NCBI GenBank assembly: GCA_947478725.1 | Contig: CANJWZ010000010.1 | Span: forward strand, 1 to 64,000 | Source of the DNA: Comamonadaceae bacterium | Lineage (GTDB): Bacteria > Pseudomonadota > Gammaproteobacteria > Burkholderiales > Burkholderiaceae_C | DNA length: 64,000 nt | Direction: 5' to 3' | Shown here: piece by piece, positions 8,372 through 26,876 of the stretch | Position numbering within the stretch: the stretch's first letter is position 1 | Layout of the letters: each line of letters begins with the position of its first letter | Made by a program: the position numbers and the translations under genes | Notes under the pieces: generated by a model | Seen by the model: only the letters and a program-made list of their open reading frames with translations | Told to the model about the DNA's origin: nothing | Database searches by the model: none

Positions 8372-8617
8372 GTCTGTATCTCCTGTAGCTTCACGTCATC
8401 ATGGAATACGTACGCACCTACTACTATTTGCTAGCGGATAGTAATTTAGCATAAGTTATGCCTTAAAAAGTCAAAACTTTGCTCCTTTCGTTCCGCTTGA
8501 TCTGCAAAATCGAACCGGTTATGCATCGAGTTTGAAGCCATGGGCAGCGTTTGGCCGAAGAAGTGACTCGGTGTGATCCACAACCTGAAGTTACGCTTCA
8601 TTGGCCTTCATGACAAC

Positions 8618-8641
8618 TCAAATGAATTGAAGGATTATTCA
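8618..8641 (+). promoter_or_regulatory. Operator-like site 1 of six (TCAAAT-N14-TTCA)
   Basis: TCAAATGAATTGA at 8618-8630 is a T-N11-A element with TCA/TGA arms, as expected for a LysR-type box, and is followed at fixed distance by TATTCAA. Nearly 40 bases around it recur at 26625-26665. The TCAAAT end faces the aldehyde dehydrogenase operon to the left. It lies between that operon and the divergent LysR gene at 9018. Function as a LysR site is inferred from the dyad, the recurrence and the position. Confidence 0.7.
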
Positions 8642-8645
8642 ATTT

Positions 8646-8975
8646 CCAGTATCAATCTGCCTAAGCTACAGCTGTCTCAGATGGCGAGACCGTGCTGACG
8701 GCCGGCAATGATCAGCAATCCCGGCGGCTCCTATCAACAACAGGTCGCGGTGTTGAAGGATCCTTAAGCTGGCACGCGAAATTTTGTAGAAGATTCCGCG
8801 ATTGGACGCACGCACGACACCTGTTCTAACCAGTGCGATCCACGCGGCTGCGAAAACCCGAGCGTCCGACCAAAATTCGGACTCCATGCCGAGCAGCTGA
8901 GGTCTGATAGCTTGGCTGGTTTGGCGGCCCCGTCAATCAAGGGATGTTTTGCACCGATTGCCGTAATATACAAAA
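8646..8975. other. Intergenic stretch without a recognisable gene
   Basis: Between the operator-like site and the LysR gene there are only short open frames on the minus strand (for example 8666-8887) with no family resemblance and no ribosome site. The region probably contains the leader and promoter elements of the divergent genes; I see no clear -35/-10 pair. Confidence 0.4.
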
Positions 8976-8998
8976 TGAACAATAATTTCCATTGTTCA
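8976..8998. repeat. Inverted repeat just upstream of LysR gene 1
   Basis: TGAACAAT (8976-8983) and ATTGTTCA (8991-8998) are perfect 8-base arms around a 7-base spacer, ending 19 bases before the GTG start at 9018. The position suggests an autoregulatory operator or a leader hairpin. It does not share the TCAAAT-N14-TTCA pattern, so it may be read by a different protein. Confidence 0.55.
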
Positions 8999-9017
8999 AT
9001 TAAGTATTGCTGCCGTC

Positions 9018-9923
9018 GTGAAAATCAACTTCAAGCTCTTCACCACATTTCTTGCCGTGGCAGAAAACGCCAGTTTTCGCAAAGCTGCTGAGCAAACCCA
9101 CCTGTCACTGCCGGCCGTCAGCATGCAGATTAAGCAGCTGGAGGAAAGGTTGGGCGTTGCCGTGTTTCAGCGAACCACACGTCGGGTGGAATTGACGCGG
9201 GAAGGCGAGGATCTGATGATCAGCACCCGCAAGGCGCTTGCGGAACTTGAGGGTGCCTTGGCACGTATCCAGCAGGCGGCTGAGGTGCAGCAGGGTCAGT
9301 TGTCACTGGGCTGCGTGCCCACTGTGGCCGGTACGCGGTTACCCGCCTTGCTGGTGGCATTTGCAAAAACCTATCCTGCCATTTCCGTGAGCGTGCGTGA
9401 GCTTTCGCAGCCCGATCTACTTGAGGCGGTACGACGCCGTGAGGTTGACTTCGGCATCGGCCCCATGCCCGAAAAACACGGAGATCTCGAGTTTGAACCG
9501 ATATTCGTTGACGATAGCGTTGCGCTCATGCCAGCAGCGTTGGTATCGCTAGACAAGACCAGTATTTCCCTGCGCGAGCTTTCCCGGCTACCACTGCCGC
9601 TGTTGTCCCTTGGCGCATCCCAGTTTCAGCGAAAGTTAAACCAGGCACTGGAGGATGACGACATGTCGCCAAGTATGAGTTACGTGGTCACCCACGTTAA
9701 CACCCTGGTGGCTATGGCAGAAGCCGGACTGGGCATTTGCATCCTTCCAGCGATGGCTGCACCGCCCAGGACAAAACTGAAAAGCCTTCGCATTGTTCGC
9801 CCCTCACTGTCTCGCACGATTGCCATCATGAAAATAAAGAGCCACACTCTGTCGCCTTCGGCTGCACGCTTCGTCCAGTTGTGCGGCATGTTGGAGCCGC
9901 TACCAGGCAAGAAGACTGGCTAG
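9018..9923 (+). CDS. LysR-type transcriptional regulator (paralogue 1)
   Basis: A 301-residue LysR family regulator. Residues 1-60 form the winged helix-turn-helix (MKINFKLFTTFLAVAE, then LPAVSMQIKQLEERLG), followed by a linker helix and a periplasmic-binding-like effector domain. The GTG start gives the same MKINFKL N-terminus as the second LysR gene at 17933; by my count 49 of the first 64 residues are identical. LysR proteins usually activate adjacent catabolic genes in response to a pathway intermediate. Operator-like sites lie on both sides, upstream at 8618 and downstream at 10077. The co-inducer is unknown. Confidence 0.93.
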   Translation: MKINFKLFTTFLAVAENASFRKAAEQTHLSLPAVSMQIKQLEERLGVAVFQRTTRRVELTREGEDLMISTRKALAELEGALARIQQAAEVQQGQLSLGCVPTVAGTRLPALLVAFAKTYPAISVSVRELSQPDLLEAVRRREVDFGIGPMPEKHGDLEFEPIFVDDSVALMPAALVSLDKTSISLRELSRLPLPLLSLGASQFQRKLNQALEDDDMSPSMSYVVTHVNTLVAMAEAGLGICILPAMAAPPRTKLKSLRIVRPSLSRTIAIMKIKSHTLSPSAARFVQLCGMLEPLPGKKTG

Positions 9924-9977
9924 TTACCGCCGGTCAATCGGCATACGGCTAATTTTTAACCACACCAGTATTTATCG

Positions 9978-10011
9978 GCAGTTCTTTCTGTTACGTCTTT
10001 TTAAGAACTGC
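9978..10011. repeat. Inverted repeat after LysR gene 1
   Basis: GCAGTTCTT (9978-9986) and AAGAACTGC (10003-10011) are perfect 9-base arms around a 16-base T-rich loop. It follows the lysR stop by 54 bases and could end that transcript. No T-run follows the stem on the plus strand, so a classical rho-independent terminator is not supported. Confidence 0.45.
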
Positions 10012-10076
10012 GCGACGGTTATGAGCGCTGAGGCAAAACAGGGCTTACTCATCGATCGGATTCTGTCCAGAAAAGC

Positions 10077-10100
10077 TGAATAGTCGTTCACGTTATTTGA
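10077..10100 (-). promoter_or_regulatory. Operator-like site 2 of six, with candidate -35
   Basis: On the minus strand TCAAAT (10100-10095), 14 bases, then TTCA (10080-10077) reproduce the shared pattern. It lies 76 bases upstream of the hydratase ATG at 10177 with its TCAAAT end towards that gene. Read in the direction of the gene, TTGATT at 10097-10102 could be a -35 element with TTATCT 17 bases later, so the activator site would abut or overlap the -35, as is usual for LysR activation. Confidence 0.7.
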
Positions 10101-10176
10101 TTTGTGTGCACAAATATTCTTATCTACTATCTGTTGCAGTCTGACCCGCTTGAGGCTACAGCAACCAACGGTACCC

Positions 10177-10956
10177 ATGTCCAGCAAAACCATTCAATAT
10201 GTCGTCAAAGACAGCGTCGCCGAAATTTTCTTTAATAATCCGCCTGTAAACGGTCTGTCTCACGAGGTTATGGATGCGTTGATGGCGGCGTTGTTGCGAG
10301 CCAGAGACGATGCCCAGGTGCGTGCAGTCATCATCGCCAGCGCTATTCCCGGGCGATTCTGTGGGGGGCTGGATCTGGGGGTCTTCTTGGACAGCACGCC
10401 AGCGCAAAAGCATGCCATGGTCGATAAGCTGTATGCGAAGCTGTGCGATCTGCAGTTTGACCTGGGCAAGCCCTGCATTGCTGCGATCACTGGCGCGGCT
10501 CGCGGCGGCGGTATGTCGCTGGCGATCTCGTGCGACATGATGGTCGCGGCAGATAATTCCACCTTCGGCTACCCAGAGCTCGACATTGGCCTCGTGCCTG
10601 CCATCCACTACGCGACGCTGCATCGAATTGTGGGTCGCTATCGCGCGTTTGATCTGCTGTTCACTGGTCGCGTCTTCAGTGCGCAGGAGGCAGCTTCACT
10701 CGGACTCGTGAGCCGCTTGGCGCCCGAAGACCAAGTCATGGCGGAGGCTCGCAAAGTGGCGCAGGTGCTGGCCAGCAAGTCGCCACAGCTGATGGCTTTG
10801 GGCAAGACGGCCTTCACCCGAGCGATCGATAGCGACTATCGCAAGAGCATCGCCTCCGCCGTTGACCTGGTGAGCACGACAACCGGCATGGAAGATTCGG
10901 TCGAGGGCCTCAAGGCCTTTGTGGAGAAACGCAAACCCGTCTGGAAAAACCCCTGA
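10177..10956 (+). CDS. Enoyl-CoA hydratase/isomerase (crotonase) family protein
   Basis: A 259-residue crotonase-fold protein. The oxyanion-hole segments are VIIASAIPGRFCGGLDLGVF and ITGAARGGGMSLAISCD, with PELDIGLVPA typical of the catalytic loop. The usual second hydratase glutamate lies in the PELD motif; the first is replaced in GAARGGG, so the chemistry could be isomerisation or another crotonase reaction instead of simple hydration. I chose ATG 10177; an upstream in-frame start would run through the promoter and operator. It heads an operon with a Bug receptor and a CoA-transferase, implying acyl-CoA catabolism of an imported acid. Confidence 0.85.
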   Translation: MSSKTIQYVVKDSVAEIFFNNPPVNGLSHEVMDALMAALLRARDDAQVRAVIIASAIPGRFCGGLDLGVFLDSTPAQKHAMVDKLYAKLCDLQFDLGKPCIAAITGAARGGGMSLAISCDMMVAADNSTFGYPELDIGLVPAIHYATLHRIVGRYRAFDLLFTGRVFSAQEAASLGLVSRLAPEDQVMAEARKVAQVLASKSPQLMALGKTAFTRAIDSDYRKSIASAVDLVSTTTGMEDSVEGLKAFVEKRKPVWKNP

Positions 10957-11012
10957 AGCAGCCTTGAGGTCATGGTGACCAAGGCATGAGCCCCCACAAA
11001 ACGGAGACAGGT

Positions 11013-11981
11013 ATGACAATGACCAAAACCATATTCGCTGCACTCACCCTGGCTGCTGCACTTTCCCCAGTGGGTGCGTTTGCGCAGGCAGACTTTCCGT
11101 CGCGACCCATCACCATCATCGTGCCTTATGGTCCTGGCAGTGCCACTGACAATACAGCAAGGCCGATTGCGCAGGCACTGAGTAAATCGTTAGGCCAGAG
11201 CGTCATCATTGACAACAAGGCGGGCGCCAACGGCGTCATCGGCACCCAGGCCGGCGCGCGTGCCAAGCCTGATGGTTATACGCTGCTGGTAGGCTCCAGT
11301 ACCACGCTGGCCGCCAACGCTGGACTGTTCAAGACGCTCCCCTATGACACGCAGAAAGACTTCCAGGCCGTGTCGGGACTCGGGTCAACGTCGATGATGT
11401 TCCTGGTGCGTTCGGATTTTGCGGCCAAAGATATCAAGAGCTTTCTGGCCTACGCCTCGAAGCAATCTGCGCCTGTGCCAGTCGCCTACGGATCGTCGAG
11501 CGCGCAGGTTGCGCTGGCCTTGCTGACCAAGATCAGCGGCGTGAAGTTCACGGCCATACCGTACAAAGGCACGCCGCAGGCCATCACCGACCTGCTGGGC
11601 GGACAGGTACCGGTGGCGATTGTGGATGTGGGCAATGGCGTGCCGCACCTGAAGTCCGGCAAGGCCAATGCCTTGGCCGTGTCGGCCGCCACACGTAGCA
11701 CGGCCGCGCCCGAAGTGCCGACGCTCGCCGAAACCTGGCCCGGCACGCAACTGGTTACCTGGATCGGACTCGTTGCGCCCGCGGGCACACCCATGACTAT
11801 CGTGGAGAAGCTCAACGCGGCCATCACCTCTGCCCTGGCGTCGCCCGAAGTCAGACAGCAATACGCGGCAGCCGTGACCGAGGTCGAGCCCGTCAGCCAC
11901 CAGGAGTTAACGCGGCGCATGCAGCGCGACCGGACGCTATGGCTCGAACTGATCAAGGAGGCGGGCATTCAGCCTGAATGA
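11013..11981 (+). CDS. Bug/TctC-type tripartite tricarboxylate receptor (1 of 6)
   Basis: A 322-residue periplasmic receptor. The signal peptide (KTIFAALTLAAALSPVG, cleavage near AFAQA) leads into DFPSRPITIIVPYGPGSATD, the ligand-binding start of the family. KPDGYTLLVG and the second-domain PYKGTPQAITDLLGGQ are further hallmarks. Such receptors bind carboxylates for TctAB-type transporters or act as sensors; no TctA/TctB gene is in the window. ATG 11013 follows an AGGAG-like site (cggagacagg). It overlaps the following CoA-transferase by four bases, so its ligand may be the acid that enzyme activates. Confidence 0.92.
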   Translation: MTMTKTIFAALTLAAALSPVGAFAQADFPSRPITIIVPYGPGSATDNTARPIAQALSKSLGQSVIIDNKAGANGVIGTQAGARAKPDGYTLLVGSSTTLAANAGLFKTLPYDTQKDFQAVSGLGSTSMMFLVRSDFAAKDIKSFLAYASKQSAPVPVAYGSSSAQVALALLTKISGVKFTAIPYKGTPQAITDLLGGQVPVAIVDVGNGVPHLKSGKANALAVSAATRSTAAPEVPTLAETWPGTQLVTWIGLVAPAGTPMTIVEKLNAAITSALASPEVRQQYAAAVTEVEPVSHQELTRRMQRDRTLWLELIKEAGIQPE

Positions 11982-13180
11982 CGATGGCAAAGATGCCAAC
12001 CAAGGGGGCGCTCGACGGCCTGCGCGTGCTGGACCTTTCCCGCGTGCTTGCCGGCCCGCTGGCAGCGCAGGTTCTGGCTGACCTGGGAGCCGATGTCATC
12101 AAGGTCGAGCGGCCGGGCAGGGGAGACGACTCGCGTGAATGGGCGCCGCCATTCATGTCGTCCACACCCAAAGACCCGTTGGACGAGTCTGCGTATTTCT
12201 GGACCTGCAACCGCGGCAAGCGGTCGATAGAAATCGACATCGCCTCGCCGCAAGGCCGCATTCTTGCAGCACGCCTGGCCGCCAAATGCGATGTGGTCAT
12301 CGAGAACTACAAGGTCGGTACGCTGGCGCGGTATGGCCTGGACTACTCGACGCTCTCGCAGGACAATCCAGGGTTGATCTATTGCTCGATCACCGGTTTT
12401 GGACAGACGGGTCCTTACAGCGCCCGGCCGGGATACGACACCATCGTGCAGGCTATTGGTGGCCTGATGAGCATCACTGGTAACCCGGATGGCACGGACG
12501 GCGCTGGGCCGCGCAAGTCCGGCGTGGCCGTAGCAGATCAGATGACGGCGCTGTACTCCACCATTGCCATCCTTGCTGCTGTCAACGAGCGCCACCGCTC
12601 GGGCCTGGGGCAGTTCATCGACATGTCGCTGCTGGACGTGCAGGTGGCAGCGCTGTCCAACCTGGGCATGAATTATCTGGCAACTGGCAGGGTGCCACTG
12701 CGCGGCGGTAACCGGCTCACCACGGTGTACCCTAGCGACAACTTCTGCTGTAGTGATGGCGACATCATGCTTATCGTGGGCAATGACGCGCAGTTCGGCA
12801 GCATGTGCCAGGCGCTGGGCTTGGACGGTCTGGCAAGCGATCCCCGATTTGCACGGAACGAGGCGCGGCTGCGCCATGTGGAAGAGCTCGGGCCGCTGAT
12901 CGCCAGTGCAATAGCTAATCTTACTGTTGCCCAATGTCAGGCGCTGCTAGACGAGGCGGGCGTTCCTGCCGGACCCATCAACAACTTGCAACAGGTTTTC
13001 GCCGACCCGCAGGTCATCGAGCGCGGCATGGTGCGTGAACTCGGCGAAGCAGGAGGCAAGCCCGCCCGCATGATCGCTAGCCCCATCCGCATGTCACGCA
13101 CGCCCCTGACCTACCAACGCCCGCCGCCCAAGCTCGGCGAGCACGGCGACGAAATACTGCGTGACGTACTTGGAGTTTGA
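11978..13180 (+). CDS. CaiB/BaiF (family III) CoA-transferase
   Basis: A 400-residue family III CoA-transferase. The N-terminus LRVLDLSRVLAGPLAAQ, the segment DVIKVERPGRGDDSR and the catalytic aspartate in SLLDVQV (about residue 222) are characteristic. The enzyme moves CoA from a donor such as succinyl-CoA onto a free carboxylic acid. ATGA at 11978-11981 couples it to the Bug receptor. It converges with a MaoC gene three bases beyond its stop. Confidence 0.93.
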   Translation: MTMAKMPTKGALDGLRVLDLSRVLAGPLAAQVLADLGADVIKVERPGRGDDSREWAPPFMSSTPKDPLDESAYFWTCNRGKRSIEIDIASPQGRILAARLAAKCDVVIENYKVGTLARYGLDYSTLSQDNPGLIYCSITGFGQTGPYSARPGYDTIVQAIGGLMSITGNPDGTDGAGPRKSGVAVADQMTALYSTIAILAAVNERHRSGLGQFIDMSLLDVQVAALSNLGMNYLATGRVPLRGGNRLTTVYPSDNFCCSDGDIMLIVGNDAQFGSMCQALGLDGLASDPRFARNEARLRHVEELGPLIASAIANLTVAQCQALLDEAGVPAGPINNLQQVFADPQVIERGMVRELGEAGGKPARMIASPIRMSRTPLTYQRPPPKLGEHGDEILRDVLGV

Positions 13181-13183
13181 ACT

Positions 13184-13690
13184 TCAGCCCTTCGGTTTTT
13201 TCAGCAGCAAATACTTTTGCAACCCGTCCATCACCAGCTCTCCTCGCTGGTTGTGGACGGTGGACTTTAGCGTCAGCAGTCCGGTTGTCCGCTGAGGCAC
13301 GATCTCACAAACCTCCAGCGTCACATACAGCGTATCCCCCACAAACACCATGCCCAGAAAGCGGCTGCTCTGCTCGATGAAGCCTTTGAGCGAGTCCTCG
13401 ACATAGTGTGCGAACAATCCTGCGCCACCGCAGGTCTGGGCCACAACCTGAAAGCCGTGGGCCAGCATGTGGGGCATGCCACGCGCGCGGCAGTATTCAA
13501 CGTCGTAATGCACAGGGTGGTTGTCGCCGCTCGCCAGCTGGAAGGCGGCGAATAACGCATCAGTCATGGTGCGCGAAGGCAGGATGAATTTTTCACCCAC
13601 GGTGAAGTCCTCGAGCCAGCGTGTGGCGCACATGCGGTGGTTGCGCGGGTCGAAGGTGGTGGTCAGATGCGGGGTGATTGGTGTTGTCAT
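13184..13690 (-). CDS. MaoC-like dehydratase
   Basis: A 168-residue single hot-dog-domain protein of the MaoC family. The segment around DNHPVHYDVEYCRARGMPHMLAHGF (near residues 56-80) contains the D-x4-H hydratase pair and is the hydratase-2 motif. It probably adds water to a trans-2-enoyl-CoA. It faces the CoA-transferase head-on and lies downstream of a Bug receptor gene on the same strand, about 180 bases apart, perhaps on its transcript. An AGATT triple tandem sits in that gap. Confidence 0.88.
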   Translation of the reverse strand: MTTPITPHLTTTFDPRNHRMCATRWLEDFTVGEKFILPSRTMTDALFAAFQLASGDNHPVHYDVEYCRARGMPHMLAHGFQVVAQTCGGAGLFAHYVEDSLKGFIEQSSRFLGMVFVGDTLYVTLEVCEIVPQRTTGLLTLKSTVHNQRGELVMDGLQKYLLLKKPKG

Positions 13691-13873
13691 GACATTTCAG
13701 CCTGGTTGATATCGGCGCTCGATCGCATAGATTAGATTAGATTCGATGTCTTTACCCTTGAAGCTATGGGTCAGTTCAATTGATGCCCAGCCGTAGCGCA
13801 AAGTGGCCGGCCATAACCTGGAAAACGGCCCACGCGAGATCAAGGGGCAGGGCTCGTCTAACATCACATCATC

Positions 13874-14839
13874 TTACGGTTTGAGGCCGAGGTCTTTCAC
13901 CAAGGTGGCCGTGACAGCACTTTCGGTCTGGAATGATTTGACGAGCGAGTCCCCATCGACCCAGGCTGCCTGGATGCCGACGCTTGTGAGTTTGTCGTTC
14001 AGGTCGGGTGTGGAGAGAATGGCTTCCAGATCGGCTTTGATCTTGTCCACGATCGGCTTTGGCATTCCGCGCGGTCCCATCATCACATGCGTCAGCGTGA
14101 CACGCTGATCGCGGATTCCCTGCTCTAGAAGCGTTGGTACCTGGGGCAGGGTTTTGAGGCGGGTGAGCGTGCTGACCCCTAGGGCCCTCAGCTTGCCCGA
14201 CTGTATAAATGCCAGATTGTTGGTCACGCCATCTACGCCGACCTGAATTTCATCGCCCAAAAGGCCCTTGGTCGTATCAACACCACTCTTGTAGGGAACC
14301 CAGGTGAACTTGATCTTTGCCTCGCGGGCAAACTGTTCTTGAAGAATGTGGGTCACTGTAGCCGGTCCACCCGCATTGAGTACACCAGGCTTGCTACGAG
14401 CCAGTGCGATCAGCTCCGGGATAGTTTTGACTGGCAGATTCTCATTGACGAGTATCAGCATCGGTACCGCTGTCGTCTGGCCAATGATCGTGAAATCGTT
14501 GGCTGGGTCATATGGCACCTTCATGGTGTGCGGGGTTAACGTCAGTGTTGAATTAATGGCGAGAAGCAGGGTGTAGCCGTCAGGCACTGCACGCTGCACC
14601 TCCGAAGCAGCAATCACCGTATCGCCGCCAGGTTTGTTGTCGACCAATACTTGTTGACCCCACTTGTCAGAAAGTTTTTGTGCAATCGTTCTTGCGACCA
14701 CATCCGCAGAGCCACCGGCTCCAAATGGAATCACAAGCCGGACTGGCCGCATCGGAAATGTTTGTGCATGGGCGGGCAAAGCCGACGCCAGCAACAAAAC
14801 GGGCGCGAGCAAGGCCACAGAGCGTCGTGTGAAAAACAT
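13874..14839 (-). CDS. Bug/TctC-type receptor (2 of 6)
   Basis: A 321-residue receptor with a signal peptide (RRSVALLAPVLLLASALPAHAQ) and the family start FPMRPVRLVIPFGAGGSAD. VPDGYTLLL and GGPATVTHILQEQF segments are in the expected places. I chose ATG 14839, preceded by GGAGACA; an in-frame extension to 15001 would put 54 non-signal residues ahead of the signal peptide. Its position among hydratase and dehydrogenase genes suggests a carboxylate ligand. Confidence 0.9.
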   Translation of the reverse strand: MFFTRRSVALLAPVLLLASALPAHAQTFPMRPVRLVIPFGAGGSADVVARTIAQKLSDKWGQQVLVDNKPGGDTVIAASEVQRAVPDGYTLLLAINSTLTLTPHTMKVPYDPANDFTIIGQTTAVPMLILVNENLPVKTIPELIALARSKPGVLNAGGPATVTHILQEQFAREAKIKFTWVPYKSGVDTTKGLLGDEIQVGVDGVTNNLAFIQSGKLRALGVSTLTRLKTLPQVPTLLEQGIRDQRVTLTHVMMGPRGMPKPIVDKIKADLEAILSTPDLNDKLTSVGIQAAWVDGDSLVKSFQTESAVTATLVKDLGLKP

Positions 14840-15122
14840 GTTGTGTCTCCTGAATTTTTTTAAAGCATTGGAATCGAATGTGTGCTTAACGCGTGAAGAG
14901 TCTACGGAATCGTTATCCTGCCCACAATTCATAAGATTTGAATCATTGTTATCAAACAGGCCACCTTTCAAATATCCACCGCAACGCGCATTTATTCCCA
15001 CATGCGTTGTATTTTTTAGCGCAACAAATGAGAGACTGGCATTAAGATTCTCGCCAACACGTCTGACTCACTTGCCCTGAAAAATGAGCCAAGCGCGTGA
15101 TTCAATCTGAATACCCCTATGA

Positions 15123-16062: not shown

Positions 16063-16983
16063 CTAAACCGGATCCCAATCGAACACGTCCTGCGAACGGT
16101 CAAGCTTGTAGAAGCTGGGCCGCATGGCTGGCATGGCGCGTTCCGCGACTGACTGTGGTGTCCAGCCTTCGGCGGTATGCATGGAGCGGATCGGGCGCAT
16201 CTGACTCATGAGAAAAATTTCATTGGCCCTCACAGCGAAGATCTGGCCAGAGACATCTTTGGCTGCATCACTGGCCAGGTACACGGCCAGAGGCGCGATT
16301 TTCGATGACTCCATTTTTTGCAGTCTGGCTACCCGAGCTTTCTGCTCGTCTGTTTCCGTCGCTATGCCGCCTATCATCCGGCTCCAGGCGAACGGGGCGA
16401 TGCAGTTTGACCGCACGTTGAACCTAGCCATGTCCATCGCAATTGACTTGGAGAGCGCGGCGAGTCCAAGCTTTGCCGCCGAATAGTTGGCCTGTCCCAG
16501 GTTGCCAATGAGACCGGATGTCGAGACCATGTGAATGTATGACCCTGACTCCTGGGCCTTGAAATGTGGCGCGGCAGCGCGGGAAATATAAAAGGGGCCA
16601 TTCAAGTGAACGTCAATCACCGCACGCCATTCATCGACACTCATATTGAAGAAAAATCGATCTCGAAGAATGCCGGCGTTATTGATCACGCAGTCGATCT
16701 GCCCATAAGTTTCCACTGCCTGACGAATCATGTTGTTTGCACCGTCCCAGTCAGCCACGCTGTCACCGTTGGCAACAGCCTGGCCGCCGGCAGCGACCAC
16801 TTCATCAGCAACTGTTTGTGCGCGAGCGACATCCCGCCCCTCACCGTTCATGGAGGTTCCCAAGTCATTGACGATGACTTTTGCGCCTTCAGCGCCCAGT
16901 GCGAGAGCGAAATCGCGGCCAATCCCGCCACCTGCACCCGTTACCAGCACTACCTTGTCTTTGACAAAACTGCCCTTGTCCAT
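16063..16983 (-). CDS. SDR oxidoreductase, (3R)-hydroxyacyl-CoA dehydrogenase-like
   Basis: A 306-residue SDR resembling the dehydrogenase unit of peroxisomal multifunctional enzyme 2: VKDKVVLVTGAGGGIGRDFA near the N-terminus, VIVNDLGTSMNGEG (NAD-type aspartate), NNAGILRD, and YSAAK as catalytic Tyr/Lys. ATG 16983 has a GGAGAcc ribosome site and follows the citryl-CoA-lyase-like gene by 17 bases. It likely oxidises a (3R)-hydroxyacyl-CoA, perhaps the product of the convergent hydratase. The roughly 50-residue C-terminal extension beyond a minimal SDR fits that subfamily. Confidence 0.87.
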   Translation of the reverse strand: MDKGSFVKDKVVLVTGAGGGIGRDFALALGAEGAKVIVNDLGTSMNGEGRDVARAQTVADEVVAAGGQAVANGDSVADWDGANNMIRQAVETYGQIDCVINNAGILRDRFFFNMSVDEWRAVIDVHLNGPFYISRAAAPHFKAQESGSYIHMVSTSGLIGNLGQANYSAAKLGLAALSKSIAMDMARFNVRSNCIAPFAWSRMIGGIATETDEQKARVARLQKMESSKIAPLAVYLASDAAKDVSGQIFAVRANEIFLMSQMRPIRSMHTAEGWTPQSVAERAMPAMRPSFYKLDRSQDVFDWDPV

Positions 16984-17000
16984 CTCGGTCTCCAATCGAA

Positions 17001-17795: not shown

Positions 17796-17854
17796 TTGGT
17801 AGCCTTGATGGTTGGTTCGTCAGCTATGGTAAGTGCGGTAGCCTATGTAATAAG

Positions 17855-17878
17855 TCAAATAAACTGACTAATTATTCA
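17855..17878 (+). promoter_or_regulatory. Operator-like site 3 of six
   Basis: TCAAATAAACTGA (17855-17867, a T-N11-A dyad with TCA/TGA ends) is followed by CTAATTATTCAA, giving TCAAAT-N14-TTCA. The TCAAAT end faces the citryl-CoA-lyase-like gene. It sits in the 110-base gap between that gene and the divergent LysR gene at 17933, the classical place for a LysR site. Confidence 0.75.
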
Positions 17879-17932
17879 ATTTATACGATTAAATAGTGGC
17901 AACAATTGGGACACCACCATTTGGGCATCGTC

Positions 17933-18817: not shown

Positions 18818-18857
18818 CTTTGTGCGCTGCACGGCCGGGCAAACAAATCACGCGGAT

Positions 18858-18881
18858 TGAAGAATCACTAAGATTATTTGA
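18858..18881 (-). promoter_or_regulatory. Operator-like site 4 of six
   Basis: On the minus strand TCAAAT (18881-18876), 14 bases, then TTCA (18861-18858). The TCAAAT end faces the TauD-like gene, whose ATG is 94 bases further on. In the gene's direction the box includes TTGACT (18878-18883), a good -35-like hexamer, but no convincing -10 follows at 17 bases, as expected for an activator-dependent promoter. Confidence 0.7.
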
Positions 18882-18975
18882 CTTGTGATTCAAGCCTTTG
18901 CTTCGTACATTCTGGATTGATGAATATCCATTTCCGGGTATTTGTGCGTTGGATGCAGAAGCTGTGAGGAACAAT

Positions 18976-19800
18976 ATGCAGGTAAAACGGATGGCGGGTG
19001 CCCTGGGTGCGGAAATTTTGGGCGTTGATCTTTCAAAAGGCCTGTCTGATAACTTGGCACGCGACATCAGGCAGGTTCTGCTGGACCATCAGGTTATCTT
19101 TTTGAAAAAGCAGGACTTGAGCCCCCAGCAGTTTCTCGATTTTGCCAAAGCAATGGGTGAGCCGATCGAATACCCTTTTGTTAAAGGCCTTGAGGGCTTT
19201 CCGTACATCATCGAGGTCAAGAAACTCGAACATGAGAAAGTAAACTTTGGCGGTATCTGGCATTCAGACACCACCTATTTGGAGGAGCCGCCCATGGGAT
19301 CCATGCTACTTTCCCGAGAAGTACCGCCCTTTGGTGGTGACACCCTATTCGCCAATCAATACCTTGCCTACGAGTCGCTTTCGAGTGTGATGAAGAAGAT
19401 TCTGGATGGACTCGTCGGCATCAGCAGCTCGGCACGTGCTGACGTTTCAAAAACCCGGGAGGACCGAATCAAGTCAGATGGAAAGGATGTCGTCCCGCAA
19501 GAGTTCAGGGCAGAGCATCCCATCGTGCGGACCCACCCTGAAACCGGTCGAAAAGCCCTGTACGTGAACACGGCTCACACCTCTGGCATCAAGAGCATGC
19601 TGGACGAGGAAAGCACACCCATCTTGGAGTATCTGTTTAAGCACCAGGTCAAGCCGGAGTTCACTTGTCGCTTCCAATGGGAGCCCAATGCAATCGCCTT
19701 TTGGGACAACCGCTGCACCCAGCACAACCCGGTCAACGACTATCACGGCTATCGCAGGGTCATGAACCGAATCACCCTCAAAGGCGACAAGCCCCATTGA
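18976..19800 (+). CDS. TauD/TfdA family 2-oxoglutarate-dependent dioxygenase
   Basis: A 274-residue Fe(II)/2-oxoglutarate oxygenase. The iron ligands are His96 and Asp98 (WHSDTTY), with the distal histidine near 250 (CTQHNP) and the 2-oxoglutarate arginine in YRRVMNR. ATG 18976 follows a GAGGAAC ribosome site; an in-frame start at 18898 would extend through the promoter. Family members hydroxylate taurine, phenoxyacetates, sulfonates and other acids next to a heteroatom. It is first in an operon with a tartrate-dehydrogenase-like and an acetolactate-synthase-like gene. The substrate is unknown. Confidence 0.9.
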   Translation: MQVKRMAGALGAEILGVDLSKGLSDNLARDIRQVLLDHQVIFLKKQDLSPQQFLDFAKAMGEPIEYPFVKGLEGFPYIIEVKKLEHEKVNFGGIWHSDTTYLEEPPMGSMLLSREVPPFGGDTLFANQYLAYESLSSVMKKILDGLVGISSSARADVSKTREDRIKSDGKDVVPQEFRAEHPIVRTHPETGRKALYVNTAHTSGIKSMLDEESTPILEYLFKHQVKPEFTCRFQWEPNAIAFWDNRCTQHNPVNDYHGYRRVMNRITLKGDKPH

Positions 19801-19908
19801 TCCAGATAAGCCGGAACGCCGGTGCGCGGCGGTCTCTGCATGCATGGTCACAAGCCGCCCGGTGTTTTAGATAGTGATCTGCAGGCCAATAAAGTCAGAA
19901 AGAATGTT

Positions 19909-20985
19909 ATGAGTCAATACAGGATTGCCGTGCTGGCAGGAGATGGCATAGGCAAAGAGGTCATGCCTGAAGGGCTGGCGGTGCTCGACGCCGTGGCGCG
20001 AAAGTACGGTGTCTCCTTTGACTTCGATCACTTCGATTTTGCGTCATGCGACTACCGCGCCAAACATGGAAACATGATGCCTGAAAATTGGAAAGACCAG
20101 ATTGGCGGGCACGATGCGATCTTTTTCGGTGCTGTCGGCGCACCTGCACAGGTGCCCGATCACATCTCAGTCTGGGAGTCACTTCTCACCATCCGCCGCG
20201 AGTTTGATCAATACGTGAATCTCAGGCCAGCAAGGCTGATGCCTGGGGTTCCATCACCGCTTGTCGGCCGTAAAGAGGGCGACATTGACTTCTACATCGT
20301 TCGCGAAAATACCGAGGGCGAATACAGCAACGCGGGCGGTCGTATGTTCGCTGGGACAGAACGGGAAATGGCCATTCAGGAATCCGTTTTTACCCGCGTC
20401 GGAACTGACCGTGTACTCAAGTATGCATACGAGCTTGCGTCAAAGCGACCGAAAAAACACCTGACATCGGCCACCAAGTCGAACGGAATTTCTATCACCA
20501 TGCCGTTCTGGGATGAGCGGGTAGAGGCTATGGCAAAAAATTATCCTGACGTTCGTACCGACAAGTTTCACATCGACATACTCACTGCAAACTTCGTCCT
20601 GCATCCTGACTGGTTCGATGTTGTTGTCGCCAGCAACCTTTTCGGCGACATCCTGTCCGACTTGGGGCCTGCGTGCACTGGAACCATCGGCATAGCCCCT
20701 TCGGGCAATATCAATCCGGCTCGAACCCACCCGAGCCTTTTTGAGCCCGTACACGGATCTGCACCTGATATTGCGGGCAAGGGTATTGCCAATCCAATTG
20801 GACAGATCTGGTCTGGCGCGTTGATGCTTGAATTTCTTGGTCACCAAGATGCGCACGATGCGGTTCTCAAGGCCATTCGGGAAGTTCTGGCAGCAGGACC
20901 TGCACATGCTCCATTGACTCGCGACATGGGTGGAACCGGCAGCACACGCGATCTTGGAAAGACGATCGCCGCCGCTATCCGGTAG
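19909..20985 (+). CDS. Tartrate/D-malate dehydrogenase-type decarboxylating dehydrogenase
   Basis: A 358-residue member of the isocitrate/isopropylmalate dehydrogenase superfamily. IAVLAGDGIGKEV near the N-terminus, the NTEGEYSNAGGRM segment and the metal-binding NLFGDILSDLGP region match the TtuC-like tartrate dehydrogenase/decarboxylase group. It should oxidise and decarboxylate a 2-hydroxy (di)acid with NAD and a divalent metal. I chose ATG 19909, which gives the family-typical N-terminus. The next gene starts nine bases after the stop. Confidence 0.9.
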   Translation: MSQYRIAVLAGDGIGKEVMPEGLAVLDAVARKYGVSFDFDHFDFASCDYRAKHGNMMPENWKDQIGGHDAIFFGAVGAPAQVPDHISVWESLLTIRREFDQYVNLRPARLMPGVPSPLVGRKEGDIDFYIVRENTEGEYSNAGGRMFAGTEREMAIQESVFTRVGTDRVLKYAYELASKRPKKHLTSATKSNGISITMPFWDERVEAMAKNYPDVRTDKFHIDILTANFVLHPDWFDVVVASNLFGDILSDLGPACTGTIGIAPSGNINPARTHPSLFEPVHGSAPDIAGKGIANPIGQIWSGALMLEFLGHQDAHDAVLKAIREVLAAGPAHAPLTRDMGGTGSTRDLGKTIAAAIR

Positions 20986-20994
20986 CCCGTTGCA

Positions 20995-22806
20995 ATGACC
21001 GCATCTTTACCCGGCAAGGTTCGTGGCAATCGGAGCCAACAGGAGTCAGCTGACACCGCTTTAGCAGACCCACCAGCTCGTAGCACTGGTGCCGAAATTC
21101 TGGTCGATACCCTGGTGGAGATCGGCGTTGACACGCTGTTTGGCTACCCGGGCGGCGCTGTACTACCCGTGTACGATGCGCTGTTTCAGGACGCGCGGCT
21201 GCGTCATGTACTGGTACGGCACGAACAGGCCGCAGTTCACGCGGCTGAAGGCTACGCAAGGAGCACGGGCAAGGTAGGGGTTGTCTTGGTCACCTCTGGA
21301 CCCGGCGTATGCAATACCATCTCCGGCTTGGTTGATGCATTGTGTGATTCGATTCCCATTGTTTGCATCAGCGGGCAGGTATCGTCAAAGCTGATCGGCA
21401 CCGATGCTTTCCAAGAGTGCGATGCTGTCGGTCTGACCAAAGCCGCCACGCGGTGGAACCACCAAATCAGCCATATCGGCGAAGTCGCTGAAGTGGTTCG
21501 CAAGGCGTTCGCGGTGGCGGCCGGTGGACGGCCTGGTCCGGTGGTGATTGATTTCCCAAAAGATATCCAGCAGGAGCTTTCCTTGCCGCAACCGGCGCGC
21601 GATATGCCGCAAGCGGACGTTGTACCGCCGCTGCAACCATCGGGTGAAAACATTCATGCCGCAGCAGAATTGATTCGCCATTCGCGTCGGCCGATTTTTT
21701 ATGGGGGTGGCGGTCTGGTCAACTCAGGCGAAGCTGCCTGCGCTGGTTTCACGCGCCTGGTCAAAGCCACTGGCGCGCCTTGCACATTGACTCTGATGGG
21801 TCTGGGTGCTTTCCCGGCTAGTCACGACAGCTTTCTCGGCATGCTGGGCATGCATGGCACAGTAGAGGCTAACCTGGCGATGCACGAGGCCGATCTGATC
21901 GTTTGCGTCGGCGCGCGCTTTGACGACCGCATCACTGGTCGTCTGGAAGACTTTGCGCCCTTTGCAAAAAAAATCCATATTGACATCGACCCGTCGTCGA
22001 TCAATAAGATCATCCAGGTCGACGTGCCCATCGTGGGTGATTGCGGTGAAATACTTGCGCTGATTGAAGCTGAACTGGCCGGTGTGTCCTTAGCTGCTGA
22101 CCTGCAGGCCTGGTGGAAGCGGATCGCTCAATGGCGCGAGGCGGACTGTTTTGCGTTTGCCGACCACGACACAGCCATCCGCCCCCAAAATCTTTTACAC
22201 ACGCTCGACAAGTTGTTGCACCAGCGCGGTGATGACTACATCGTCTCTACGGATGTTGGTCAACACCAAATGTGGGCGGCGCAGTATCTGCGGTTTGACA
22301 AGCCAGGGCGCTGGCTGACGTCGGGCGGTGCTGGCACCATGGGCTATGGTCTGCCAGCCGCGCTTGGCGCGCAGATCGCCCATCCTGACAAGACAGTCGT
22401 TTGTGTCAGCGGCGATGCGTCTGTGCTCATGAACATCCAGGAACTGGCCACCGGCAAGCAGCACGGATTGCCGGTCAAGCTGATCATCTCAAACAACGGC
22501 TACATGGGCATGGTAAGGCAGTGGCAGCAGTTAAACCACGGCAGCCGCTACAGCCACAGCTATACCGACTCGCTGCCTGATTTTGTGGCGCTGGCTGCTG
22601 CCTTTGGCTGGCGCGGCGCCAAGGTCAGTGACCCGGCCGAGCTGGAGCAGGCCCTGAAGAGTTGCCTTGCGCATGACGGGCCTTACTTGTTGGATGTGGC
22701 CGTCGCTGCACAGGAGAACTGCTTCCCGATGATGGCGAGTGGTGCGGGTCACCATGAAATCATGCTGGACAAAGACCGGCTTTATGAAAATCCGCTCCCT
22801 GAGTGA
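20995..22806 (+). CDS. Acetolactate synthase large subunit-like ThDP enzyme
   Basis: A 603-residue thiamine-diphosphate enzyme of the acetohydroxyacid synthase family. The ThDP-activating glutamate is Glu77 ([15 protein letters not shown]), GTDAFQE is near residue 140, and the ThDP/Mg motif runs from GDASVLMN to NN about residues 473-503. Such enzymes decarboxylate a 2-oxo acid and join the remainder to a second carbonyl compound. No small regulatory subunit gene is adjacent, unlike biosynthetic ilv operons. In an operon with a dioxygenase and a decarboxylating dehydrogenase it may act on a pathway 2-oxo acid. Confidence 0.88.
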
Positions 22807-22873
22807 TGGGCTGCTTGGAAGAATAAGGGGTGCGGTTTATGGGGCGCAGGACGGGCCGTCTTGCTGAATTCAG

Positions 22874-23929
22874 TCATTCCGGCTTGACGACGACCCGCCC
22901 GACAAACCGCCGAAGTTCGAGATCGTCAATGATCTGGTTAATTTCGTTCATCGGTTTAGTAGAAACAGGTATCGGCTGCAAGAGGCCATCTGACGCAAAG
23001 CGGATAAGCTCCTTGAGTTCATCAAGCGTGCCGACATGAGAGCCGCGAATGGTGAGATTTCTGGGAGACAACATGGCCAGAGGAATCTCCAGGCTGCCGC
23101 CCATCATCCCGACGATGACGATGACGGAGCCCTTGACCGCAACTGCCATCGCGAGCTCAGCAGTTTGACGCGTGCCGACAAAATCAATGATGCCTCTTAT
23201 TGGCCCACCTGCCGCACGTTTGAGGTCTGCCGCTACATCGCTGCCGCTGCTGTTGAATATCTGGTGCGCGCCAAGAGCAGAAGCCGCCTGAAGTTTGTCA
23301 TCATCAAGGTCAGCGACGATCAGCTCCGCCTTCGTCACCAGTGGTGCAATCGATACCGCCGCCAGTCCCAGGCCTCCGGCACCAATGATCAGCAGCCGGT
23401 CGGTTGAGGTCATGGCTGGCATCTTCTTCAAGGCGCCGTAAGAAGTCAGACCCGAGCAGGCAAATGTTGCAGCAAGATTCAGGTCCACGTCATGGGACGC
23501 GACGATGTATCGACTTTTCGGCACCAGGACGTATTGGCTGAAACCGCCATCACGCCGCGAGCCAAGGCTGCGCTGTGCTTCGCAGTCGGTGTCCCGTTCG
23601 TCCAGGCAGTGCGAGCAGACGCCGCATCCGATCCAGGGGTAGACCACCACCGGCTCCCCAATTGTCAGACCTTTGACGTCGCCACCCACGGCAGCGACGG
23701 TACCAGCCATCTCGTGGCCCAGTGTCATTGGTAATTTGGAGCCAAATTGTTCGGCGGTCAGTTTTTTGCCGCCCCCAAGATCAAAATATCCTGCACGAAT
23801 ATGCACATCGCTGTGACACACACCCGCGGCAATGATCTTGACGAGCACTTCGTCGCCTTGCGGCACCGGTTTTTCGAGCAGTCGAAGCTGTAGTGGCTTG
23901 CCCCACTCGACGATCTGGTAACTGTTCAA
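22874..23929 (-). CDS. Zinc-dependent alcohol dehydrogenase (MDR superfamily)
   Basis: A 351-residue medium-chain dehydrogenase. Catalytic zinc ligands are in AGVCHSDVH and GHEM, with a further Cys in FACSGLTSYG. Structural zinc ligands are in CGVCSHCLDERDTDC. The nucleotide fold GAGGLGLAAV is in the middle of the chain. It interconverts a primary or secondary alcohol and a carbonyl using NAD(P). It follows an aldehyde dehydrogenase gene on the same strand with 89 bases between, so alcohol to aldehyde to acid is a plausible sequence. It resembles the alcohol dehydrogenase at 26923. Confidence 0.92.
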   Translation of the reverse strand: MNSYQIVEWGKPLQLRLLEKPVPQGDEVLVKIIAAGVCHSDVHIRAGYFDLGGGKKLTAEQFGSKLPMTLGHEMAGTVAAVGGDVKGLTIGEPVVVYPWIGCGVCSHCLDERDTDCEAQRSLGSRRDGGFSQYVLVPKSRYIVASHDVDLNLAATFACSGLTSYGALKKMPAMTSTDRLLIIGAGGLGLAAVSIAPLVTKAELIVADLDDDKLQAASALGAHQIFNSSGSDVAADLKRAAGGPIRGIIDFVGTRQTAELAMAVAVKGSVIVIVGMMGGSLEIPLAMLSPRNLTIRGSHVGTLDELKELIRFASDGLLQPIPVSTKPMNEINQIIDDLELRRFVGRVVVKPE

Positions 23930-24018
23930 GTGATCCCCTTGTGAACTGACATATTCATAGCGCTACATGTGCGGAAAAATGCTTAGTCGCCAGCTGCTTT
24001 TCTTGCTGCAATAGCTGA

Positions 24019-25521
24019 TCAGCTGAGTCTGACGACCACCGACTTTGTATTGAGATAGTGATCCATGTGCTCGGTGCCGGACTCACGGCCATAGCCGCTC
24101 ATTTTGTAGCCGCCAAAAGGAATGGCCGGGTCGAGCTGCAGGTAGCAATTGACCCATACCGTGCCGGCCTTGAGGGCGCCAGCAACCTGGTGTGCCTTGC
24201 TCACGTCGCGCGTCCAGACGCCGGAACCAAGGCCGTAGCTGGTGTTGTTGGCGCGCTGGACAACTTCTTCCACGCTGTCGAAGGGCATGGCACTGATGAC
24301 GGGGCCAAAAATTTCCTCCCGCACGATTTTCATGTCGTCCCGTGCGCCCGAAAACACAGTCGGTTGCACATAACATCCGTTCGCGAGTTCTCCGGTGTTT
24401 GCACTTGCGCCGCCTGAAAGTGCTTTGGCGCCTTCTTCATGCCCGCTTTTGATGTATCCCATCACCTTGTCGAACTGCAGCCTTGAAGCCAGCGGCCCCA
24501 GCTCTGTCGACGGGTCCAGCGGAGAGCCGACGCGCATCTTGCCTGCCAGTTCAGCGACACGGTGAACAAATTCGTCATGGATGCTGCGCTCTACAAACAG
24601 TCGGCTGCCGGCGATACATATCTGCCCGCAATTGGTAAACACGGCCATGGCTGCTCCGGCCACGGCCGCATCAAGGTCGGCATCGGCGAAGATGATGTCG
24701 GGTGACTTGCCACCCAGCTCCAGTGAGAGCCGTTTCAGGTTACCGGCTGATGCTCGAACGATGGCCTGGCCTGTCGCGGTAGAGCCGGTAAAGCCCACCT
24801 TGTCAATGTCTGGATGCGCCGCGACGGCTGCACCTGTGGCTCCTGCGCCAGTGACCACGTTCATCACGCCGGGTGGAAAACCGGCTTCTTCTATCAGTTC
24901 TGCCAATTTCAGCGGGGAAAGGCTGGCCTGCTCGGAAGGTTTCAGCACTAAAGTACAACCTGTAGCCAGAGCCGGTGCAACTTTCCATACTGCTTGGCTG
25001 AGTGGGCCGTTCCATGGAACGATGGCGCCGACCACGCCGACAGGCTCCTTGACTGTGTAAGACAGTACGGAACCAGGCAGTGAGTTTGAAATGTTCTGTC
25101 CATGAATAGCGGTGGCTAATCCGGCGTAAAAGCGGATCATGCCAACGACTCTTTGCCGGCCGGCAGAGCTGCGTGAAATGGGCATTCCCATTTCCAGGGT
25201 GTCCAGCATCGCGAACTCGTCGTAGTCACGGTCGATGAGATCGGCCAGTTTAAGCAGCAGCCGCTGGCGTTCGACCGGTTTGGTACTTCCCCAGGTGGTA
25301 TTGAATGCGTTGCGTGCGGCCTTAACGGCAGCATCTACATCACTTTCACCAGCTTCAGCGATGTGCGCCAGGACTTCGCCCGTGGCCGGGTTGATGCTTT
25401 CAAAAGTCTTGCCGGATGCGGCGTTAACCCATTTGCCGTTGATCAGCAGCTTTTTTGCGGCCATTGAGGCAAGGGCCTTGGGCACTTTGGGAGTTGCCAC
25501 TGTGGTCAGTGTTTCGTTCAC
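24019..25521 (-). CDS. NAD-dependent aldehyde dehydrogenase (betaine/phenylacetaldehyde type)
   Basis: A 500-residue aldehyde dehydrogenase. The catalytic base is Glu268 (SLELGGKSPD) and the nucleophile Cys302 (NCGQICIAGSR), with the nucleotide-pocket motif IVPWNGPL at about 167-174. The spelling follows the broad ALDH1/2-like class of bacterial betaine and aromatic aldehyde dehydrogenases. It lies between a Bug receptor gene (70 bases upstream) and an alcohol dehydrogenase gene. Together with the divergent alcohol dehydrogenase, esterase and monooxygenase it would finish oxidation of an alcohol to a carboxylic acid. Confidence 0.92.
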   Translation of the reverse strand: MNETLTTVATPKVPKALASMAAKKLLINGKWVNAASGKTFESINPATGEVLAHIAEAGESDVDAAVKAARNAFNTTWGSTKPVERQRLLLKLADLIDRDYDEFAMLDTLEMGMPISRSSAGRQRVVGMIRFYAGLATAIHGQNISNSLPGSVLSYTVKEPVGVVGAIVPWNGPLSQAVWKVAPALATGCTLVLKPSEQASLSPLKLAELIEEAGFPPGVMNVVTGAGATGAAVAAHPDIDKVGFTGSTATGQAIVRASAGNLKRLSLELGGKSPDIIFADADLDAAVAGAAMAVFTNCGQICIAGSRLFVERSIHDEFVHRVAELAGKMRVGSPLDPSTELGPLASRLQFDKVMGYIKSGHEEGAKALSGGASANTGELANGCYVQPTVFSGARDDMKIVREEIFGPVISAMPFDSVEEVVQRANNTSYGLGSGVWTRDVSKAHQVAGALKAGTVWVNCYLQLDPAIPFGGYKMSGYGRESGTEHMDHYLNTKSVVVRLS

Positions 25522-25591
25522 TTCATCTCCATGTAAATTGCTTGTTCAAATTCATTCTGCTCTGGACGTATGCGAGCCAGCGCCGTGCGGA

Positions 25592-26569
25592 TCACTGCCG
25601 TTCAATGCCCGCTTTTTTAATCAATTCAACCCAACGCGGATTGTCTGTGCGTATGCGTTCTTCCAACTGCTTGCTGTCCATCGGCATGACCTTGGTATTC
25701 AGAACCTGAAACCGCGCCTTGACCCCTGTTGTCGCCATCGCAGACCGTATGGCCGAGTTCAGAGAAGCGACTATGGGCGCTGGCGTACCGGCTGGCGCCA
25801 TGACGGATATAAGCGTCTCTAGCGTGCCGCTAGCCCGAGGAAAAGCCTCTTGCAAAGTCGGTACATCAGGCGCACCTTCGTAGCGGCTTGCAGATGAAAT
25901 AGCGAGAGCTCGCGCCTTTTGCCCGTTTATCTGTGCCATTGCGCTCCCGATGTCCACCACAGCGACTTGGATCTGTCCGCCCAACATGTCAGTCAGGGCT
26001 TGAGGAATGCCACGGTAAGCTATGCCAAGAGGTTCCGATTTGGTGACGGTTGAAAACAATGCCACGGCAACCTGGCCGCTTGGTGAGCCATAACCCATAC
26101 TGACGGGCTGGGCGCTTGTCCGCTGTGCTGCTGCCAGATCGGCAACTGTCCGGTACGGGGAAGACTGCGATACCATGAACATCATTGCGGTTGAGCCGAC
26201 GTTTGCTACTGGTGTGAAACTCGTAACGGGATCGTATGACAACTCCTTGAACAGACTGTCGGCCACAAACATGACTGAAGAGCCGACCAGAAGCGTGTAC
26301 CCATCTGGTTTTGCCTTTGCCACATACGCGGCTCCAATCGTGCCTTGGGCGCCAGCCTTGTTCTCCACAATCACCGGCTTGCCAAGCGATTGCGTCAGCG
26401 CATTGGCAAGCACGCGGGTCACGGCATCGGTCACTGACCCCGCCGGAAACGGTGCGACCAGCGTGATGGGACGCGATGGGAAGTCGCCGGTCTGCGCAAA
26501 AGGCGCTGACATGGCGCCCGAAAGCAGCAGTGCCACACCAGCGGCGATGGCGAATCTGCGATTGAGCAT
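25592..26569 (-). CDS. Bug/TctC-type receptor (3 of 6)
   Basis: A 325-residue periplasmic receptor with a signal peptide (RFAIAAGVALLLSGAMS, cleavage near FAQTG) followed by DFPSRPITLVAPFPAGSVTD, and KPDGYTLLVG and YRGIPQALTDMLGGQ hallmarks. It is especially like the receptor at 11013 in its second domain. ATG 26569 has an AGGAGA site. It is the first gene of a Bug, ALDH, ADH operon and has an operator-like site 69 bases upstream. Confidence 0.92.
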   Translation of the reverse strand: MLNRRFAIAAGVALLLSGAMSAPFAQTGDFPSRPITLVAPFPAGSVTDAVTRVLANALTQSLGKPVIVENKAGAQGTIGAAYVAKAKPDGYTLLVGSSVMFVADSLFKELSYDPVTSFTPVANVGSTAMMFMVSQSSPYRTVADLAAAQRTSAQPVSMGYGSPSGQVAVALFSTVTKSEPLGIAYRGIPQALTDMLGGQIQVAVVDIGSAMAQINGQKARALAISSASRYEGAPDVPTLQEAFPRASGTLETLISVMAPAGTPAPIVASLNSAIRSAMATTGVKARFQVLNTKVMPMDSKQLEERIRTDNPRWVELIKKAGIERQ

Positions 26570-26638
26570 TGCTTGTCTCCTGCGAACTTGGATGTTGTCT
26601 GGATGGCTAAGGTACCCCTCAATGCCCTTCATTACAAA

Positions 26639-26662
26639 TCAAATGAATTGAAGGACTATTCA
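26639..26662 (+). promoter_or_regulatory. Operator-like site 5 of six
   Basis: TCAAATGAATTGA at 26639-26651, then AGGACTATTCAA. It is almost identical over about 40 bases to site 1, including a leading CTTCAT. The TCAAAT end faces the Bug, ALDH, ADH operon (start 26569). It shares a 350-base divergent promoter region with site 6. Confidence 0.75.
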
Positions 26663-26757
26663 AAATTCAATAGTAATTCGCAAGGTCATGACCCGATCAA
26701 GAAAGGTTGCAAATCAAAAATAGCTTTGAGTCCTAGTGATGCTGGCGTCAGATTTTC

Positions 26758-26781
26758 TGAACAATCATTCCGTTTATTTGA
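26758..26781 (-). promoter_or_regulatory. Operator-like site 6 of six
   Basis: On the minus strand TCAAAT (26781-26776), 14 bases, then TTCA (26761-26758). The TCAAAT end faces the alcohol dehydrogenase, esterase, Baeyer-Villiger operon that starts at 26923. Sites 5 and 6 are back to back, 95 bases apart, so both divergent operons appear to be under the same activator. Confidence 0.72.
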
Positions 26782-26876
26782 CTTGTTGCATAGGGTCCGA
26801 GCCCATAGCATTCGACCCGTGATTGAGCTCGCAGCCTGCGCATGTCAAGCTAGGTACAGTGTCTGCAACATCGCTC

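Follow-up and report, generated by a model that had tools for sequence, protein, structure and literature searches.

A conserved element of ~30 bp, fused to the −35 hexamer of a predicted promoter, lies 5' of seven catabolic operons in a 64,000-nucleotide stretch of a Comamonadaceae bacterium genome (GenBank assembly GCA_947478725.1, contig CANJWZ010000010.1, positions 1 to 64,000; hereafter the window). We consider it probable, at roughly 85%, that these sites serve an activator-type LysR protein as operators, the protein being one or both of two regulators encoded in the same cluster (LysR1 and LysR2). Such an arrangement would apparently let one small LysR family turn on an entire degradation route at once. 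The best reading of the sequences is an activator-type LysR regulon of ~22–24 genes for the catabolism of a compound that is perhaps ketone-derived. The sites, their promoter spacing, their conservation and their specificity within the genome are established directly by sequence comparison.

Seven probable operators in the window

A preliminary description of this DNA had reported six exact copies of TCAAAT-N14-TTCA. Their coordinates and strands are all correct and the window holds no further exact copy; 0.22 copies are expected by chance, and six or more were reached in none of 100 shuffles. Matches with one mismatch show a smaller excess (13 versus 4.1 expected), so the signal resides in the six exact copies. 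The genome (3.99 Mb, 79 contigs) contains 21 copies of the bare motif, six of them within 18 kb in the window and 15 on other contigs. As had also been described, the motif is preceded by ACAA at five of six sites (ATAA at the remaining one), and its TCAAAT end points toward an operon at all six, at 60–247 bases from the start codon with starts re-placed.

The six sites are real, and the motif is longer than stated. Alignment of the six reveals constraint within N14, with motif positions 8, 13, 17 and 19 invariant, and a matrix of any five ranks the omitted site third to seventh in the window. The full element spans ~30 bp and runs into the −35 and −10 boxes; the consensus of 24 sites from relatives (see below), read toward the operon, is CTGAACAATCGTTCAGATTATTTGAnTTGT. 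The single regulon originally envisaged is supported, with seven promoters and ~22–24 genes instead of six and ~20, operon extents being taken from gene order. The operons are those already named; several start codons are other than those of the longest open reading frames (enoyl-CoA hydratase (ECH) 10177, TauD 18976, Bug3 26569, Bug2 14839 and LysR2 17933).

The operator of the operon encoding aldehyde dehydrogenase (ALDH) 1 and the Liv transporter lies at 8613–8642 on the minus strand (−35 TTGTCA 8616–8611, −10 TAACTT 8593–8588, leader ~210 nt; E 1e-4). On the plus strand, 10076–10105 precedes the ECH-Bug1-CoA transferase operon (−35 TTGTGT 10102–10107, −10 TACTAT 10125–10130, start 10177; E 4.4e-4). 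The site between the citryl-CoA-lyase-like/SDR operon and LysR2 occupies 17850–17879 on the minus strand (−35 TTATTA, −10 TACCAT, spacing one shorter; E 0.0025), and that of the operon of TauD, TtuC and an acetolactate-synthase-like gene (ALS) is found at 18857–18886 on the plus strand (−35 TTGTGA, −10 TACATT, start 18976; E 2.3e-5). Two further operators face apart: 26634–26663 on the minus strand for Bug3, ALDH2 and alcohol dehydrogenase (ADH) 1 (−35 TTGTAA, −10 TACCTT, start 26569; E 2.5e-4), and 26757–26786 on the plus strand for ADH2, an esterase and a Baeyer-Villiger monooxygenase (BVMO; −35 TTGTTG, −10 TAGCAT, start 26923; E 3.5e-6). The seventh, weaker operator is located 5' of Bug2 at 14924–14953 on the minus strand, with TTGTGG as its −35 box and, at exactly the usual distance, TAGACT as its −10 box. 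We placed the Bug2 start at ATG 14839, which has an AGGAG box before it. This site has an orthologue in a related locus (L031, 9537–9566), likewise with TAGACT and 5' of that locus's Bug2. Overlapping the LysR2 site, a partial second motif copy is present on the opposite strand at 17864–17893 and faces LysR2; it scores 27.1 bits in one scan and 14.6 with a relatives-only matrix.

Specificity within the genome and conservation in relatives

A LysR-based genome scan provided 79 loci, with L024–L040 as close LysR relatives and L041–L102 as controls; L024 comes from nearly the same species (98%). Using a 30-mer matrix built from the 24 relatives' sites only, with no window sequence and L024 excluded (model R1), we ran the genome scan that the preliminary description had proposed. 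R1 puts the six window sites first in 3.99 Mb (E 3.5e-6 to 0.0025; best 150 of 833 candidates scored). Among the same best 150, eight matches reach E ≤ 10: the six sites, one place on another contig and the Bug2 site. The top match outside the cluster (C38:11921, E 0.10) was rejected, as it gave no composite hit of ≥15 bits when taken as its own locus (L107).

A composite scan for the 30-mer together with the −10 box, with a matrix that includes the window's own sites, found exactly seven places of ≥12 bits in the window, scoring 33–53 bits, and a maximum of 21.8 bits in the 62 control loci (distant LysR neighbourhoods, 984 kb). With the relatives-only 30-mer matrix the same seven come out on top (24.7–44.5 bits), followed by the next at 15.1 bits; the maximum in 200 Markov-shuffled windows was 17.0.

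The proposed comparison with relatives was also carried out, and 13 of 16 loci (L025–L040, 15 genomes) keep one to four sites, 24 in total. Sites accompany LysR orthologues at least 52% identical to those of the window (range 52–71%); the LysRs of the three siteless loci (L036–L038) are 39–47% identical. Homologues of window genes were identified behind all but one of the 24 sites, the exception being that of L026, and polarity is retained although gene order and neighbours differ. Sites occur before ECH (L025, L029, L031, L035, L040), the citryl-CoA-lyase-like gene (L025, L027, L029, L035, L040, L106), TauD (L025, L027, L028, L030, L032, L033, L104, L105, L106), Bug genes (L025, L031 twice, L035 and L040; Bug3 specifically in L025 and L031) and an ALDH of ~40% identity (L034, L039).

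When the 16 LysR genomes were searched in full, 14 had a match, most of the matches being training sites or L024's own. Four sites were new: one before an ALDH at L035 12467 and three on other contigs, which precede orthologues of ALDH2-ADH1-BVMO-LivK-LivG-LivF (L103), TauD-Bug3 (L104) and TauD (L105).

Predicted promoter architecture

At 27 of 31 sites (seven in the window and 24 in relatives) a TAnnnT starts at offset 19 past the 30-mer, with one more at 18 and one at 20; the 79 other offsets tested yield 12 in total. Eight of ten later-added sites have it at offset 19 as well. Since the sites were picked on the 30-mer, the −10 box is independent evidence that each belongs to the promoter of the operon to which it had been assigned. 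Taking TTGTnn at the end of the element as the −35 box gives a spacer of 17 bp. Both boxes are weak, the −10 often reading TAgcAT. TTGACT at the TCAAAT end was considered as an alternative −35 box and rejected: the conserved TAnnnT would be 22 bases off, whereas its distance from TTGTnn is 17 at 27 of 31 sites.

As the conserved element includes a −35 and a −10 box at a set distance, it could represent a class of promoter that an alternative sigma factor reads, and not the operator of an activator. We regard this as very unlikely. A 17-bp spacing with a weak TAnnnT suits the housekeeping sigma factor, and the 26 bases 5' of TTGT are conserved too, contain dyads and track the LysR gene.

It is still more improbable that a single promoter segment was recently duplicated to give the six copies, their likeness then reflecting common descent and not function. 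The copies at 8618 and 26639 do resemble each other just beyond the 30-mer as well. However, conservation covers both boxes but not the 19 bases linking the element to TAnnnT, and relatives whose LysRs are 52–71% identical carry this element 5' of the same genes.

Reckoned from the predicted −10 boxes, the sites extend from about −61 to −32. Their dyad centres fall at about −49 and −43, compared with a canonical LysR primary site that is centred near −65 and reaches −35; the operator thus appears closer to the start than usual and may be a compact variant.

The LysR proteins and their link to the sites

The two LysR genes noted earlier within the regulon were confirmed, both proteins matching Pfam HTH_1 and LysR_substrate above gathering scores. 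LysR1 is encoded at 9018–9923 on the plus strand from a GTG start, and LysR2 at 17933–18817 on the plus strand from an ATG chosen by alignment with LysR1, not from the longer TTG open reading frame. They are 62% identical and have near-identical presumed DNA-contact helices, with PAVSMQIKQLEE common to both, and both may recognise the same sites. None of the other 29 LysR matches in the genome exceeds 34% identity. Two LysR copies of >50% identity were found in L024's genome alone among 17 genomes searched. Four genomes (G300, G306, G310 and G313) have one LysR each, yet three to five sites; one LysR therefore appears to suffice.

In LysRs encoded beside canonical sites, the presumed DNA-contact helix reads S-[LM]-[PS]-A-[VI]-SMQ-[IV]-KQLE. 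In L036, L037, L038 and L109 the corresponding residues are SQSVV, SQSAI, SDSAI and SQSAI. Where QSV, QSA or DSA replaces LPA, there is either no site (L036, L037, L038) or a variant one (L109). L109 is a Paraburkholderia plasmid with a LysR of 48% identity; its variant sites at 1858–1887, 11912–11941 and 12938–12967 (23–27 bits) precede genes for an ALDH, a GMC oxidoreductase and a CoA transferase, and all three have TAnnnT at 19. A fourth variant site there (20.6 bits) lies before an SDR gene. Three other plasmid LysR loci (L110–L112, 44–49% identical) have no site of ≥16 bits.

LysR1, LysR2 and the LysRs of relatives are encoded mostly inside the cluster, and linkage alone could yield the association if another transcription factor, encoded elsewhere, bound the sites and the LysR genes were mere neighbours. 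Several results make this unlikely. The first is that the operators change or vanish alongside the helix changes. The second comes from Variovorax paradoxus VAI-C (L108), which lies outside every model: a site of 43 bits, followed by TAGCAT at 19, adjoins a 70% identical LysR, yet precedes an operon of an LLM flavin-monooxygenase, a Bug protein and a CoA-ester lyase. The site thus tracks LysR rather than one enzyme set. Finally, genomes with no LysR match rarely hold the site. A match at E < 0.01 was found in one of 298 other genomes of the family (G205) and one of 398 other genomes of the order (G495, E 0.0095), the two samples overlapping and both scans using stricter filters that lose weak matches. 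LysR searches of family and order samples drawn likewise, at E 1e-70 or 1e-75, found no match in any other genome. In G205 (locus L106) the lyase-SDR pair and TauD each stand behind a site, with pieces of a LysR homologue between them. These pieces (7087–7692) lie in different frames and cover residues 1–81 and 236–293; they may represent a regulator in decay or an error of assembly.

Dyad symmetry and a palindrome before LysR1

The preliminary description had recognised a T-N11-A dyad of LysR type, and this is real: the T (column 13) is present at all 41 sites and the A (column 25) at 40 of them. It has a competitor, an overlapping dyad six columns off that scores nearly equally. The best axes, each with arms that are complementary in register, are column 19 (the T-N11-A box, TCA-N7-TGA; 0.56) and column 13 (TGAACAAT-N7-ATTATTTG; 0.53). 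For TCA-N7-TGA, 82.9% of cells pair with G-T counted, and at most 63.4% when it is slid. A dyad at columns 1–16, favoured at first, is not among the best axes.

A perfect 23-bp palindrome, TGAACAAT-N7-ATTGTTCA, occupies 8976–8998, 19 bases 5' of the LysR1 start, and is a probable autoregulatory operator of LysR1. We compared 18 LysR upstream regions (two from the window, two from L024 and one from each of 14 other loci), and the pattern occurs with at most one mismatch in four, those of LysR1, its L024 counterpart, L031 and L040. The genome has one additional place at that stringency. At three mismatches the pattern appears in 21 of 100 shuffles, so the weight of the palindrome lies solely in its exactness and recurrence. 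LysR2 and several of the relatives' LysRs have a divergent activating-type site instead.

Predicted target operons and a possible pathway

The predicted targets encode enzymes, a Liv transporter and Bug receptors. ALDH1, a branched-chain-type ABC transporter (LivK, G, F, H, M) and an SDR are encoded at 1315–8371 on the minus strand; enoyl-CoA hydratase, Bug1 and a class III CoA transferase at 10177–13180 on the plus strand; and Bug2 at 13874–14839 on the minus strand, where a MaoC-like gene (13184–13690) may follow Bug2 in the same transcript. The citryl-CoA-lyase-like protein and SDR are found at 16063–17795 on the minus strand, and a TauD/TfdA-type dioxygenase, the tartrate-dehydrogenase-like TtuC and the acetolactate-synthase-like protein at 18976–22806 on the plus strand. 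Bug3, ALDH2 and the zinc alcohol dehydrogenase ADH1 occupy 22874–26569 on the minus strand, and ADH2, an alpha/beta-hydrolase esterase and the BVMO 26923–30634 on the plus strand.

The nearest solved relative of the BVMO is phenylacetone monooxygenase, and the dioxygenase is nearest to phenoxypropionate dioxygenase. The class III CoA transferase is related to succinate-hydroxymethylglutarate and succinate-glutarate enzymes, in the latter case below the NCBIfam cutoff. Together with two zinc alcohol dehydrogenases and two aldehyde dehydrogenases, this gene content allows a guess at the pathway: a ketone might be oxidised to an acid, followed by CoA activation and cleavage as a CoA ester.

Two other groups of genes in the window have no site. 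The product of 33282–34301 scores 556 bits against the NCBIfam model of 3,5-dioxohexanoate:acetyl-CoA acetone transferase, for which the cutoff is 430, and its gene sits in a run with Bug4, a CoA transferase and an ADH. Separate catabolic genes at 44080–58877 encode two Rieske-domain oxygenases, a LigB-like dioxygenase, a ferredoxin reductase, an amidohydrolase, an FAA hydrolase and a further Bug receptor.

Discussion

We propose a mechanism drawn from LysR biology (PMC4834489, PMC5603801 and PMC8407307). A LysR tetramer would cover ~30 bp ending in the −35 hexamer, from about −61 to −32, and the two overlapping imperfect dyads, with axes at columns 13 and 19, would lie within this stretch. 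When loaded with inducer, the bound tetramer would help polymerase to start at the target promoters; because the −35 and −10 boxes are weak, RNA polymerase would need the inducer-loaded regulator. The LysR2 gene would be controlled through the shared divergent site and the LysR1 gene through the symmetric palindrome.

Several observations weigh against the sites being LysR operators of a single regulon. Scored by its 30-mer alone, the seventh site is weak (E 0.59), and TAnnnT at 18–20 is absent from two of the 31 sites and two of the ten later ones (L103 and L035 12467). The arms of three candidate dyads show no site-by-site covariation above shuffles, and the axis-13 dyad is imperfect, with columns 6 and 20 unpaired in 27 of 41 sites and its outer two positions only G-T. 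L028 has SMSAV in the helix but still a weak canonical site. At E ≤ 0.1 a site match is present in 10 of the 298 other family genomes. Lastly, a second MaoC gene (MaoC2, 15123) and the operon at 30851–35373 belong to the same cluster and have no site in the composite scan.

The system resembles known ones in kind. PnpR/PnpM, two LysR paralogues of Pseudomonas sp. WBC-3, act on several separate catabolic promoters of p-nitrophenol operons; a GTT-N11-AAC box stands 9–10 bases 5' of −35 in three promoters, and one pnpC site is common to both LysRs (PMC5603801). That gap matches the 10 bases between columns 1–16 and −35 here. In contrast, PnpR and PnpM are 44% identical and pnpR lies at least 16 kb from the operons, whereas the paralogues here are 62% identical and inside the cluster; operator sequence and genes also differ. 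ThnR of Sphingopyxis is one LysR that activates at least four promoters of tetralin operons, two of them close and divergent like those at 26634 and 26757, but it requires the co-activator ThnY and has other sites (PMC4834489). LysR regulons of the CatR/CatM/ClcR type in Betaproteobacteria share phylogenetic footprinting, T-N11-A boxes and Bug (COG3181) targets with our case, whereas their operator is AkACC-N5-GGTAT and their targets are catechol-type; the terms Baeyer and citryl do not appear in the main text of PMC6449761.

We found no description of this regulon or motif in the literature searched, with most subscription journals and bioRxiv outside that search. The kind of control is already known from LysR regulons such as PnpR/PnpM and ThnR, and the case that this regulon and operator form a new example of it is convincing. 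A more far-reaching picture is tentative, and we think it somewhat more likely wrong than right: an undescribed LysR subfamily might use one half-site in two forms, an asymmetric activating form fused to −35 and a symmetric 23-bp palindrome restraining its own gene, and a lineage-specific LysR duplicate might let two inducers drive seven promoters for an undescribed ketone-to-acid pathway with a BVMO, an esterase, a CoA transferase and a citryl-CoA-lyase-like enzyme.

The changes in the contact helix and in the operator across relatives make a usable case for deciphering the LysR recognition code. Used as a search key, the operator led to more pathway genes in G205 and, in three genomes that have the LysR, on additional contigs. 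Overall, ~22–24 genes for enzymes, transporters and regulators become a single pathway unit that can be tested, with promoters predicted to the base.

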